A DNA stretch of 64,000 nt from Avrilella dinanensis (lineage in GTDB: Bacteria > Bacteroidota > Bacteroidia > Flavobacteriales > Flavobacteriaceae), in NCBI RefSeq assembly GCF_002807015.1, contig NZ_NIPO01000001.1:1687604-1751603 (forward strand), written 5' to 3'. Under the pieces are notes generated by a model, which saw only the letters and a program-made list of their open reading frames with translations, was not told the origin of the DNA and did no database searches. Made by a program: the position numbers and the translations under genes. Within the stretch, counting starts at the first letter, position 1; each line of letters starts with the position of its first letter. This document shows positions 40,238-43,776 of the stretch, piece by piece.

Positions 40238-41179
40238 TTACAAACTATAATTCAGACTAAAAGCCAGACGATAATTTGCTTCAACACGCCCTCCTGTCAA
40301 ATTTTGAGAAATCGGTAACATTGCATTTACGCCAAACGAAAATTTGTTATATCCAACCTCAACTCCAAGTTTACTAAAAAGAATATCTCCTTTCGTAAAT
40401 GGCACATCTTCTTTGTAATCCTGATTAGCTTGGTACGTTTCTCCTGCAATTCCAATTTGAGGAACAATCATCAAATTGTTAATAGTCGTATTATAAAACA
40501 ACGTACTTCCGTAATTAAACTGATTTCCGAATTGGTAATTTTTGTCATTTTCAGTTTTGAAAATATAACCTAAAGTAGTATTTAATCCGAATTTATTTTT
40601 TCGGATAATGTATTCGGTTGCCAAGTTATAATCCCAACTTCCTGTTCCTAACTGAAAACTCGGATTGACACTCCCGTTATTTGTATTGTTGTATTTACCT
40701 GTCGGAAGTTTCAACCCTGCTCCTACAAATACTTTGTGCTGAAAAACCGCACTGTCATTTTTGGTCTGGAAAACATTGTAGAAAGCTATAATTGTCATAT
40801 CTCCAATTCCGTTTAAACTTTGAGAGGCTGTTGCTTTTTCTCTACCTAAAAAGTGGTAGGGAACCAAAGCCATAACTTCAATTTTTTCTGTTACAGGAAT
40901 TCTTCCCCAAAGCTGAATTGTATTGAAATTCTCATCTATCCAAGGAGAATTATTGAATACGCCATCGCGACTTTTATAACTTTGATACATATAGCGAACG
41001 CCTGCAAATCTTTCGCTTAACATTGAATTGAACCCCATACTTCCTCCGCTTGCAGAACAGCCACAGGCATCGCAATCTTCGAGAAATTCAGGATTTTTGT
41101 ATTTCGGATAAGGATTGTCGTTATTGGAATATCCGTTAAATGTGATACAAAAAAGTATCAATAAAAAAATATTTTTCAT
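40238..41179 (-). CDS. Outer-membrane barrel (transporter-like) of the MbnP/MbnH locus
   Basis: A 313-aa protein with a signal peptide (MKNIFLLILFCITFNGYSNN). The mature N-terminus has a cysteine motif, CDACGCSASGGSMGF, which looks suited to metal or haem binding. The rest alternates short amphipathic beta strands (MALVPYHFLGRE, GAGLKLPTGKYN, LAFSLNYSL at the C-terminus), typical of a barrel that inserts into the outer membrane; the final aromatic/Leu strand fits BAM recognition. It starts 6 bases after the stop codon of the di-haem gene and so belongs to that operon. It may pass copper or another metal. Family assignment is from memory and context. Confidence 0.75.
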   Translation of the reverse strand: MKNIFLLILFCITFNGYSNNDNPYPKYKNPEFLEDCDACGCSASGGSMGFNSMLSERFAGVRYMYQSYKSRDGVFNNSPWIDENFNTIQLWGRIPVTEKIEVMALVPYHFLGREKATASQSLNGIGDMTIIAFYNVFQTKNDSAVFQHKVFVGAGLKLPTGKYNNTNNGSVNPSFQLGTGSWDYNLATEYIIRKNKFGLNTTLGYIFKTENDKNYQFGNQFNYGSTLFYNTTINNLMIVPQIGIAGETYQANQDYKEDVPFTKGDILFSKLGVEVGYNKFSFGVNAMLPISQNLTGGRVEANYRLAFSLNYSL

Positions 41180-41185
41180 TTTGAT

Positions 41186-42244
41186 TTATGTTTGATGATA
41201 AAAAAGTGGGTTATTGATGAATTTTTCATCAGTTAATGTTTTCAGAAACGAAATAATCGCCTCTTTTTCTTCTTGAGTCAAAGGAATCCCAGGTGTTTGG
41301 TGCTGTTGCATAAGCGGGTCAAGATTTTGGGTGTTCTGAACTCCGTTAGAATAAAAGTTCAAAACCGATTCCAATGAGCCAAAACGTCCGTCGTGCATAT
41401 ACGGAGCTGTGAGCTCCACATTCCTCAGACTCGGAACTTTAAATTTATAACGGTCTTCGGGAAATCCCGTTACGGTTTCCCTTCCTAAATCGTTCAAATT
41501 CGGATTTATAGGAAGTCCGTTATTTCGGAAAGAATTATCCGTAAAAATATCTGTCGAATGACACGAAGCACAATGATTCTGAAACAGAGCCAAACCTTGT
41601 AATTCCTGCGAAGTAAGACTTCCTCCCGTTTCGTTTCGGACATATTTATCATATTTGGAATCAGCCGAAATCATTACGGTCATAAATTGAGCTAAAGCAT
41701 TCAACAAATTAGCGGAAGTTATTTCTTCATTTTCAAAAGCTCCTTTAAACATTCTGACGTATTGCGAATCCTGTTTCAGTTTCGCAATAATATTCGATAA
41801 GTTTTCGTCCATTTCCACAGGATTGTGAATCGGAACTATCGAAAGCATCTGAATGCTGTTGGAGGCTCCGTCATAAAAATATTCCGACTGAAAAATCATA
41901 TTCTGAACAGCAGGAGTATTCCTTGTACCGATTAAATTGTCTATTCCGTGACTGAAATCGTGTCCGTGATGTGTAAATGCGTTCTGTTGTTCGTGGCAAA
42001 AAGCACAAGAAATAGTATTATCTCTCGATAATCGGGCATCATAAAACAGCTTTCTTCCCAAAGCCACCCCGTTTTCGGTAGGATAATTATTGTCAACATC
42101 CTGAAGAACATCAGGAAAGTTTGACGGAATTACCAAATCAAACGGATAATCTGCAGGTATTTCCTGATAATCATCATTATTGCACGAAAAAAACAGAAAA
42201 ACAAAACACGACAGAATTAAAAATTTTATCTTTTTCATTTTCAT
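41186..42244 (-). CDS. Di-haem cytochrome c peroxidase / MauG-MbnH-type lipoprotein
   Basis: A 352-aa secreted di-haem protein. The signal ends in FFSCNND (lipobox Cys21). Two CXXCH haem sites are present: CAFCH at residues 80-84 and CASCH at 225-229. The spacing, KLFYDARLSRDNTISCAFCHEQ, the His-rich HHGHDFSHG loop and YMHDGRFGSLESVLNFYSNG are those of bacterial cytochrome c peroxidases and MauG/MbnH enzymes. In MbnH systems the di-haem enzyme oxidises a Trp of MbnP to kynurenine. Its neighbour is an MbnP gene, which favours the MbnH reading over a peroxide-detoxifying CcpA. The start could also be 42238. The MITE-like element ends 8 bases before the start codon. Confidence 0.88.
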   Translation of the reverse strand: MKMKKIKFLILSCFVFLFFSCNNDDYQEIPADYPFDLVIPSNFPDVLQDVDNNYPTENGVALGRKLFYDARLSRDNTISCAFCHEQQNAFTHHGHDFSHGIDNLIGTRNTPAVQNMIFQSEYFYDGASNSIQMLSIVPIHNPVEMDENLSNIIAKLKQDSQYVRMFKGAFENEEITSANLLNALAQFMTVMISADSKYDKYVRNETGGSLTSQELQGLALFQNHCASCHSTDIFTDNSFRNNGLPINPNLNDLGRETVTGFPEDRYKFKVPSLRNVELTAPYMHDGRFGSLESVLNFYSNGVQNTQNLDPLMQQHQTPGIPLTQEEKEAIISFLKTLTDEKFINNPLFYHQT

Positions 42245-42252
42245 TAGTTTTA

Positions 42253-42415
42253 AGAGCCTGTTTAAAATTTATCTAATAATTTGTTTATGTTTCTTTTTGG
42301 TCATAACTGCGTTAAATTTTAAAACGATAGCTCTTGCTATCCTTTAAAAATTTGCCTTGTTCTACCTCAAAAATAACCTATAAACATTTTTACAATACAA
42401 ATTTAAACAGGCTCT
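42253..42415. mobile_element. MITE-like element, 163 bp
   Basis: Perfect 14-bp terminal inverted repeats, AGAGCCTGTTTAAA at 42253-42266 and its complement at 42402-42415. The inside is AT-rich, without an ORF, and has a central hairpin GATAGC-TCT-TGCTATC. No clear target duplication. A perfect -7 box (TAAATTTG) lies in the right terminal repeat, oriented toward the di-haem gene. Confidence 0.8.
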
Positions 42416-42448
42416 AAACTTCACGGATTTTGAAAACCCGTGAAGTTT
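42416..42448 (-). terminator. Hairpin downstream of mbnP
   Basis: AAACTTCACGG (42416-42426) and CCGTGAAGTTT (42438-42448) form a perfect 11-bp stem, 13 bases after the mbnP stop codon. The T tract expected on the minus strand is replaced by the MITE end, so termination may be incomplete. Confidence 0.65.
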
Positions 42449-42461
42449 CCTGAAAAATCAA

Positions 42462-43286
42462 TTAGTCGTGATGATTTCCTGAACCGTTATGAACGTGGTC
42501 AACAACAAACATCTGCAATGTGTTTTCTGCAATTTTAATGAGATTTTCGCCTCCCATTATACTCGCATTGGTTCCTGCAGGATTCAGATTATCAAACAAA
42601 ACAATTTTGTTTACTCCGTCGGCAATTTTATTGGCATCGGTAATTATGTGAATACTCGGTTTTTCGTCCTGACGAACTCTTGCCGTTGTCGGTAAATCAA
42701 GCGTAACTTCTCTGTAATTGTCCGTAGCGGTATTGCTCCCTTGATGAATCTGAAAGTTTTTTGGCTCGGAATTATTAGACGAAGTAAATGTTCCTTCAAA
42801 ATTGATAAAACGGTATCCCGTACTCCAAGTCCAAGTCAGATGATGTTGTGAAGCATAATTCCAAAATTCCTGTTGGGCTGTTTCGCCCTCCAAATATCTT
42901 TGGTTATCAACGCCGATTCCGAATTTCACTTTAGTATAATCTCCACTCGGAATATTCTCTAAATGCAATGTATTGATGTTGCTTTCTTCACTGACTACAA
43001 AATAACTTTTTTCTTTCGGATAAACAAACTCACTACCGTCTGCCTTTATAAAAACAATATTACTGATGATGTAGTTAAAACGATTGATAGTCAGTGTTTC
43101 TTCGTTTGAATTCGTGTAAGAACTTCCTAAAACAAGAGCATCTCCGTTTACTCCGTTATCAAAATAAAGTTCTGCCTCTCCGAAAGTTCCGTCAACATTT
43201 CCTCCCGAATTATCGTCAGAAGAACAAGAAGTTAATAATCCGAAAAAAGCCGTAGCCGTAAATATATTTTTTATGATAGATTTCAT
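42462..43286 (-). CDS. MbnP-family copper-binding lipoprotein
   Basis: A 274-aa secreted protein. The signal ends in GLLTSCSSDD (lipobox Cys21), so it is probably anchored to a membrane facing the periplasm or surface. The MbnP hallmark lies at about residues 140-165: W142, then W152 and W154 in HHLTWTWSTGYRFINFEG. In studied MbnP proteins a Trp is converted to kynurenine by MbnH and contributes to Cu(I) binding together with His. Many His residues occur elsewhere, including the C-terminal DHVHNGSGNHHD, which may hold metal. The domain begins with beta strands (EAELYFDNGVNGDALVLGSS). The di-haem partner is downstream on the same strand. Confidence 0.85.
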   Translation of the reverse strand: MKSIIKNIFTATAFFGLLTSCSSDDNSGGNVDGTFGEAELYFDNGVNGDALVLGSSYTNSNEETLTINRFNYIISNIVFIKADGSEFVYPKEKSYFVVSEESNINTLHLENIPSGDYTKVKFGIGVDNQRYLEGETAQQEFWNYASQHHLTWTWSTGYRFINFEGTFTSSNNSEPKNFQIHQGSNTATDNYREVTLDLPTTARVRQDEKPSIHIITDANKIADGVNKIVLFDNLNPAGTNASIMGGENLIKIAENTLQMFVVDHVHNGSGNHHD

Positions 43287-43394
43287 TTTAATGTATGTTT
43301 AATTTTAAAAAATGATATGATAATTCGTGTGAAACAGATTGAAAAACAATGCTTCACAAAAGATGAGTTTACAACTCAGTTTTAAATTAAAAAA

Positions 43395-43763
43395 TCAAAC
43401 AACGGGAGGATGAAAGACCGAAATCGTTTCAGTATATAAATAAAGATTATTGTACGCCGAATTTATTTTAGGTTGCAACCCTGAAACAAAAATGTGTTCT
43501 ATGCAAATTTCTTTCGCTTCATCAAGAAATATGATATTTGTTTCTACTGAAAAATGTTTTTTATCTTGACCACTTTCAGGATTGTCTGAAGCTTTTGCCA
43601 TTTCTTTCATCAAATGGCATTTTCCGTTACATTTTAATTCGGGTTTGTCTTTATTGACGCAAAGTTCATTTTTAATATAATCATAAAAAACCACATACTC
43701 CACAAGCGGTAGTATCGGTTTAAAAAGCATAAACCACGCTAATATGACTATAAAATTTTTCAC
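43395..43763 (-). CDS. Small Cys/His membrane-anchored protein of the MbnP locus
   Basis: A 122-aa protein. The start codon is GTG at 43763 (MKNFIVILAWFMLFKPILP), giving an N-terminal hydrophobic anchor. The rest is soluble and includes KCNGKCHLMKEMAK, a CxxxCH motif followed by Met, resembling soft-metal ligands, plus a further Cys in EAKEICIEH. It lies 108 bases upstream of mbnP on the same strand, and a perfect -7 box sits 5 bases before the start. I do not recognise a named family; similar small CxxxC proteins recur near metal loci in Bacteroidota. Function unknown, metal handling inferred. Confidence 0.7.
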   Translation of the reverse strand: MKNFIVILAWFMLFKPILPLVEYVVFYDYIKNELCVNKDKPELKCNGKCHLMKEMAKASDNPESGQDKKHFSVETNIIFLDEAKEICIEHIFVSGLQPKINSAYNNLYLYTETISVFHPPVV

Positions 43764-43768
43764 GTGTA

Positions 43769-43776
43769 CAAAATTA
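43769..43776 (-). promoter_or_regulatory. -7 element (TAATTTTG) of the metal locus
   Basis: A perfect TAnnTTTG match ending 5 bases before the GTG start codon, so the transcript may be leaderless. It is the most likely promoter for the small Cys/His gene and possibly mbnP. Confidence 0.5.

Follow-up and report, generated by a model that had tools for sequence, protein, structure and literature searches.

What does a small cysteine-containing gene do ahead of an MbnP–MbnH gene pair in a flavobacterium? The locus lies in a stretch of 64,000 nucleotides (nt) of the Avrilella dinanensis genome (contig NZ_NIPO01000001.1; hereafter the window) and comprises four neighbouring genes of the minus strand, which encode in this order a small protein, an MbnP-family lipoprotein, an MbnH/MauG-type di-haem lipoprotein and a predicted outer-membrane beta-barrel. 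An earlier note, made from the letters alone, had singled out these four genes, all of which are present as open reading frames (ORFs), and had suggested that the small protein hands over metal. We read it as a regulatory leader and not as a metal carrier, because of its C-terminal Pro-Pro (PP), the fixed distance between its CxxxC motif and PP, its placement as first gene and the promoter-type element at its start. With moderate confidence, we favour the view that the small gene is a copper-sensing leader ORF that switches on an MbnP–MbnH–CDxCGC-barrel cassette when copper is scarce.

The four genes recur as a set. We compared 109 MbnP loci (14 plus 95 hand-picked from the matches listed) with that of the window, giving 110 loci of which 108 are distinct (L067 equals L010, and L078 equals L006); the sample is biased toward strong PF20243 matches, and L001 and 30 short loci (L016–L045) stand outside this count, 28 of these 30 places having been re-fetched with wider flanks and the other two (L021, L032) lying on short contigs. 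The order small gene–MbnP–MbnH–barrel is complete in 83 of the 108 distinct loci. The small gene lies directly upstream of MbnP in 94 and MbnH downstream in 107, and the barrel, present in 83, never occurs in a locus that lacks the small gene. The flanks differ between loci, and we regard the cassette as genuine because its gene order recurs so often. The comparison of MbnP neighbourhoods proposed in the earlier note has thus returned a conserved set, and the idea of a stand-alone MbnP/MbnH system partnered by the barrel and the small gene holds. Across 393 genomes of the order, matches were found to MbnP in 231, to the small family in at least 256 and to the barrel in at least 158, the latter two being lower bounds because they were scored on a few best first-look candidates per genome. 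A strong barrel match (E ≤1.8e-77) is present in 123 of the 393 genomes, and all 123 also match MbnP and the small gene, a figure for co-presence in a genome rather than adjacency; a small-gene match accompanies MbnP in 178 of the 231 genomes.

The small protein carries conserved features at both ends. In the window ORF a hydrophobic N-terminus follows Lys2, and this and the CNGKCH sequence agree with the membrane-anchored CxxxCH protein of the earlier note; the histidine itself is not a family trait, as relatives have CNGKCY, CNGRCE and other variants, and a haem reading of the motif was rejected because the histidine is not conserved. CxxxC is found in 128 of 128 small-gene relatives. All 128 also carry PP within the last 15 residues, compared with 9 of 287 control ORFs of 90–180 amino acids (aa), 8 of 686 larger ORFs and none of 318 MbnP, MbnH and barrel sequences, and the C-terminal signature of the family is F-[HRK]-P-P. 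When three sets were pooled (206 small ORFs, 203 distinct), the second Cys and PP were on average 67.0 residues apart (standard deviation 2.2, range 62–74; 201 of the 203 distinct ORFs). Mean identity over 200 ORFs is 18% in the linker versus 38–39% in the two ends, the latter figure being inflated by the use of CxxxC and PP as anchors for the ends.

Whole-model matches are biased for PP, since the PP column belongs to the search model. A fairer test is offered by 20 relatives outside the order that match the model only N-terminally, of which 19 have PP; with 20 well-scoring places added, all taken from among the matches listed, PP is present at 39 of 40 places outside the order. Within a sample of the phylum that includes the order of the window, 98 of 247 genomes have a small-family match. 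No convincing family was found for the small protein in Pfam or NCBIfam, stray matches of one or two members each (best E 0.004) were set aside as chance, and 33 family members searched at E up to 10 gave no match to DUF2946, the CruR family. A leader relative without the PP tail lies ahead of a channel gene in L171 (6997–7371).

The placement of the small ORF is equally regular: in 205 of 206 cases the gene that follows has the same orientation (127/128, 38/38 and 40/40). Led or neighbouring genes that were identified encode MbnP, TonB receptors, SCO1/YHS proteins, YtkA and channels. Away from MbnP, Pfam was run on chosen single representatives, and other downstream genes were assessed only from their size or their hits with the models for MbnP, MbnH and the barrel; the Pfam runs gave a YtkA-domain lipoprotein (L142), TonB receptors (L147, L148, L162), a weak Plug match (L150), YHS and SCO1 (L161) and a Phenol_MetA_deg barrel (L162). 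Some loci contain two small genes, each heading its own group, for example a YHS-like gene with SCO1 and then MbnP–MbnH. TAnnTTTG, which we take to be the Bacteroidota −7 promoter element, occurs near the start of 51 of 96 small ORFs (53 of 96 in a slightly wider count), against 7.8 in shuffled sequences (maximum 14). It most often begins 12 nt before the start codon, a distance that is not exact, as starts (including the GTG of the window gene) were assigned mechanically and in some cases a TTG start lies within reach of the element and overlaps it. Within the leader–MbnP gap the element was found in 1 of 89 cases over the last 80 nt (shuffles 5.6) and in 4 of 89 over the last 110 nt. Present at the leader start and at chance level in the gap, it points to the leader as the likely start of the transcript, and the position of TAATTTTG implies that the window transcript would be near-leaderless.

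The two lipoproteins belong to a known type. Window MbnP matches PF20243 with 153.9 bits (Pfam cut-off 27) and reaches 38.9 bits against TIGR04052, the four-Cys, WxW equivalog of NCBIfam with a cut-off of 140; window MbnH scores 222.3 bits against TIGR04039, its top NCBIfam match, below the cut-off of 362.85. Because both score under the NCBIfam cut-offs, we regard them as an outlying MbnP/MbnH pair. A CCP_MauG Pfam match (183 bits) and the two CXXCH motifs bear out the di-haem assignment of the earlier note, and a lipobox-type Cys21 in 109 of 116 MbnP and 107 of 116 MbnH sequences, counts that include duplicates and paralogues, bears out the lipoproteins.

Of the three MbnP tryptophans named beforehand, W152 and W154 are kept in 116 of 116 relatives and the W142 column is not conserved; His181 is kept in 111 and Met259 in 86, and 96 of the 116 have no Cys past residue 40. 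A profile of 36 MbnP relatives, searched against PDB sequences at E up to 0.1, gave a single weak match (E 0.014) to 7l6g, with the WxW aligned to its WNW. This entry, named "Metallo-mystery pair system four-Cys motif protein" in the PDB, is the MbnP of Methylosinus trichosporium, in which the first WxW Trp was reportedly found converted to kynurenine in a 2021 PNAS study. The predicted structure of window MbnP (mean predicted local distance difference test score, pLDDT, 86.6) has the six 7l6g chains as its top six Foldseek matches (E 5e-9 to 7e-8, probability 1.00), with template modelling (TM) scores of only 0.43–0.48 and root-mean-square deviations of 7–10. For MbnH, the two CXXCH motifs are present in 115 and 116 of 116 relatives. 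Tyr298, in what we take to be the distal haem ligand column, is found in 108 of 116, and the aligned residue is Tyr in MbnH 6e1c and Met in the bacterial cytochrome c peroxidase 4aal. The presumed inter-haem column holds Tyr124 in the window and, among the 116 relatives, Trp in 74 and Tyr in 32.

The pair thus shares with the MbnP/MbnH of TIGR04052/TIGR04039 (7l6g, 6e1c) the PF20243 domain and fold, the WxW and an adjoining di-haem MauG-like partner, but is mostly Cys-free, falls under both NCBIfam cut-offs and has an added leader and CDxCGC barrel. A search of the genome (assembly 89% complete) for MbnB relatives (PF05114) gave none, in agreement with the earlier note, and a methanobactin link was rejected on this ground. 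CorA/CorB and MopE/SACCP of methanotrophs are similar in joining a kynurenine copper protein to a di-haem partner; CorA carries a kynurenine copper site, and CorA and CorB are co-transcribed and copper-repressed (PMC3912023).

The barrel is predicted to be a COG4313/FapF-like outer-membrane channel. Its model is all-beta, with a mean pLDDT of 76.4 and 13 strands of at least 7 residues, and the top three fold matches are FapF (5o67) and the COG4313 channel (4rl8), with TM scores of 0.60–0.64 by query and only 12–14% identity. No Pfam match was found for the window barrel, and PF13557 (Phenol_MetA_deg) matches 4 of the 120 barrel homologues listed (P0022, P0030, P0100, P0110). The CDACGCSASGG motif described earlier is present from Cys36, near rather than exactly at the mature N-terminus, and C-D-x-C-G-C is invariant in 19 of 19 diverse aligned sequences. 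Residues 13–50, which include this motif, have pLDDT below 50, so that the model does not extend to that part. In seven loci of one family (L174–L180), a weaker barrel relative follows the small gene, with MbnP–MbnH neither between them nor directly after.

Table 1. Positions of the cassette genes and of candidate sites and elements within the window.
Feature	Positions	Strand
TAnnTTTG-type element TAATTTTG, ending 5 nt before the GTG start	43769..43776	-
Small leader-like ORF, 122 aa (hydrophobic N-terminus, CNGKC, C-terminal FHPPVV)	43395..43763	-
CNGKC codons (Cys45, Cys49), candidate copper-sensing pair	43617..43631	-
Codons for Pro119-Pro120 within FHPP, two residues short of the C-terminus; candidate arrest site	43404..43409	-
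Small hairpin followed by TCTTTTG in the leader–MbnP gap, terminator-like but weak	43364..43378	-
MbnP-family lipoprotein (PF20243)	42462..43286	-
W152-T-W154 codons (WxW); W152 candidate kynurenine	42825..42833	-
Hairpin (arms of 16 nt) after the stop codon of MbnP, between MbnP and MbnH; candidate attenuator or stabiliser of the mRNA	42416..42448	-
Repeat of about 160 bp with inverted ends, resembling a miniature inverted-repeat transposable element (MITE), in the MbnP–MbnH gap	42258..42418	
MbnH/MauG-type di-haem lipoprotein	41186..42244	-
First CXXCH of MbnH (C80-H84)	41993..42007	-
MbnH Tyr124, column Trp in 6e1c, 1nml and 4aal	41873..41875	-
Second CXXCH of MbnH (C225-H229)	41558..41572	-
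MbnH Tyr298, candidate distal haem ligand	41351..41353	-
Outer-membrane beta-barrel, predicted COG4313/FapF-like channel	40238..41179	-
CDACGC codons (Cys36, 39, 41), candidate soft-metal site	41057..41074	-

From the observed gene order, conservation, spacing, promoter-type placement, families and predicted folds, we infer arrest, a copper response with its sign, kynurenine formation and copper transfer. Transcription would start just before the leader, where the promoter-type element lies. With copper scarce, the ribosome would stall at the C-terminal F-H-P-P and thereby keep the downstream genes expressed, the Cys pair being held meanwhile at the periplasmic mouth of SecYEG. Once Cu(I) bound the CxxxC of the nascent chain, the ribosome would be released, and the mRNA would either terminate or be left untranslated ahead of MbnP. 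Given about 67 residues from Cys to PP, the sensor is predicted to lie outside the membrane and to read periplasmic copper. MbnH may oxidise Trp152 of MbnP to kynurenine, creating a Cu(I) site, and the channel, its three N-terminal thiols presumably facing the periplasm, could pass copper to or from MbnP. The low-copper sign is suggested because uptake-type genes are led and CorA/CorB is copper-repressed.

Leaders of this general kind are already known, as is the occurrence of the MbnP/MbnH pair far outside methanobactin producers (PMC3621798). CruR of Bordetella pertussis (DUF2946) is likewise a small operon-heading ORF with a Cys pair, a C-terminal PP, a conserved Cys–PP spacing and a long gap to the next gene. 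It differs in its CXXC, RAPP and 45 residues between the motifs, as against CxxxC, F-[HRK]-PP, about 67 residues and no DUF2946 match here; its regulation is independent of its signal segment, and operons led by CruR homologues include MbnPH-like genes (PMC9426467). Arrest on CruR was later demonstrated in vitro by toeprint (PMC12992588). Rhodobacter CutF combines CxxxC with a PP tail, requires a Sec signal and has been proposed to sense periplasmic copper, but it uses an mRNA stem-loop and CutO is raised by copper, the opposite sign to that proposed here (PMC9973294). The published filters for CutF-like proteins on length, tail and next gene (<150 aa, PP in the last 15 residues, next same-strand gene within ≤1000 nt) admit the window ORF, with 122 aa, FHPPVV and a gap of 108 nt; a further filter asks for an N-terminal signal peptide, and there the window sequence shows its hydrophobic N-terminus after Lys2. 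The authors count many Bacteroidota members among CutF-like exported leaders (PMC9973294). The leader family may therefore already be among the 29 published CutF-like clusters. Within the papers accessible to it, our literature search found no published leader–MbnP–MbnH–CDxCGC-barrel cassette, F-[HRK]-PP tail or 67-residue ruler. The earlier judgement that the system is not well described is thus apt for the leader and the barrel and does not apply to the pair, which has been published.

Several observations weigh against a regulatory leader of this cassette. The small gene is missing from 13 of the 108 distinct loci and unmatched in 53 of the 231 genomes that have MbnP, and in 78 genomes it occurs in the absence of MbnP. 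PP is missing from the last 16 residues in 2 of the 203 distinct ORFs, and 45 of 96 leaders have no exact TAnnTTTG near the start. Terminator-like hairpins occur in only 19 of 89 leader–MbnP gaps against 6.7 expected from an approximate shuffle, and RNA folding of this gap has a mean z of −2.3, inside the range of the other gaps (−1.4, −1.7, −2.9 and −4.2), for which reason we rejected its structure as proof of attenuation. The CutF PP tail caused no stall in a LepB fusion without the copper motif (PMC9973294). The window tail is FHPP rather than RAPP, and a 2025 survey of RAPP/RGPP upstream ORFs singles out Bacteroidota as an exception in the copper class, though the TonB class was general in Gram-negatives (PMC12992588).

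The N-terminal half of the leader is conserved as well, as would also be expected if the small protein were a stable CxxxC copper chaperone, anchored in the membrane and delivering metal to MbnP or the barrel. The invariant CxxxC with its conserved surrounding segment and the identified neighbours, often of copper types, would suit such a protein, which nevertheless leaves unexplained the C-terminal PP in 128 of 128 relatives, a length held fixed across a poorly conserved linker, the repetition of the small gene ahead of separate gene groups within one locus, and a promoter-type element found at its start and only at chance level in the gap. We therefore consider a chaperone unlikely. A copper-sensing leader could also work with the opposite sign, copper strengthening the stall as for CutF, so that the cassette would be copper-induced for sequestration or detoxification. 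Rhodobacter CutF gives a precedent in sharing CxxxC and a PP tail (PMC9973294), and in a few loci a heavy-metal-type ATPase, named from a look at the sequence rather than by a family search, adjoins the cluster. The identified led genes, however, are mostly of uptake or delivery types (TonB receptors, SCO1, MbnPH) and copper represses CorA/CorB, a similar pair (PMC3912023); we hold copper induction to be quite improbable. Very improbable, in our estimate, is that MbnH and MbnP act on a non-copper target, such as another metal or peroxide, sensed by the leader: the MbnP score far under the NCBIfam cut-off, the lack of Cys after residue 40 in most relatives and the Tyr in the inter-haem column of window MbnH would fit this, whereas the WxW is kept throughout, His181 is nearly so, and the identified neighbours of the leader family include SCO1.

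Some features around the cassette stand apart from the leader. The MITE-like element in the MbnP–MbnH gap is one of 21 near-full copies in the 2.3-Mb genome, the others being 91–98% identical, and as a genomic repeat it was rejected as a part of the system. MbnP–MbnH gaps are strongly structured (mean z −4.2, with 51 of 58 under −2), exceeding four other kinds of gap, and this structure may keep the amount of MbnP above that of MbnH. Where the small gene is lacking (13 loci), nine loci carry a YHYH-type neighbour (Pfam run on one member), and in most of the 13 MbnP and MbnH overlap by a few bases. A second kind of MbnPH locus, in which the two genes overlap, a YHYH-type protein lies beside them and the fetched locus contains neither leader nor barrel, is thus represented by L047, L069, L074, L086, L087, L094, L124, L131 and L138. 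In L004, L006, L007 and L008, the cassette holds a tandem mbnP-mbnH-mbnP-mbnH, after which come an SCO1-cluster gene and a further small leader. In L142 the leader heads a protein of about 280 aa (YtkA domain) and one of about 665 aa without a Pfam match; by gene size, the same arrangement occurs in L143–L146, L153–L156 and L158.

As a tentative generalisation, about which we remain rather doubtful, copper-sensing arrest-peptide leaders with a ruler of about 67 residues from CxxxC to F-[HRK]-P-P, which would set the sensor at the SecYEG exit during the stall, may operate throughout the Bacteroidota, governing TonB receptors, SCO1/YHS, YtkA and a kynurenine-copper import unit (MbnPH) together with its thiolate-gated outer-membrane channel. 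If so, a large phylum would control its copper uptake by a nascent-chain switch that RAPP surveys would miss, and the fixed spacing would provide a simple rule for telling cytoplasmic from periplasmic reading of metal. MbnP/MbnH outside the methanotrophs would gain a regulator and a dedicated channel, opening a route to its physiological role.

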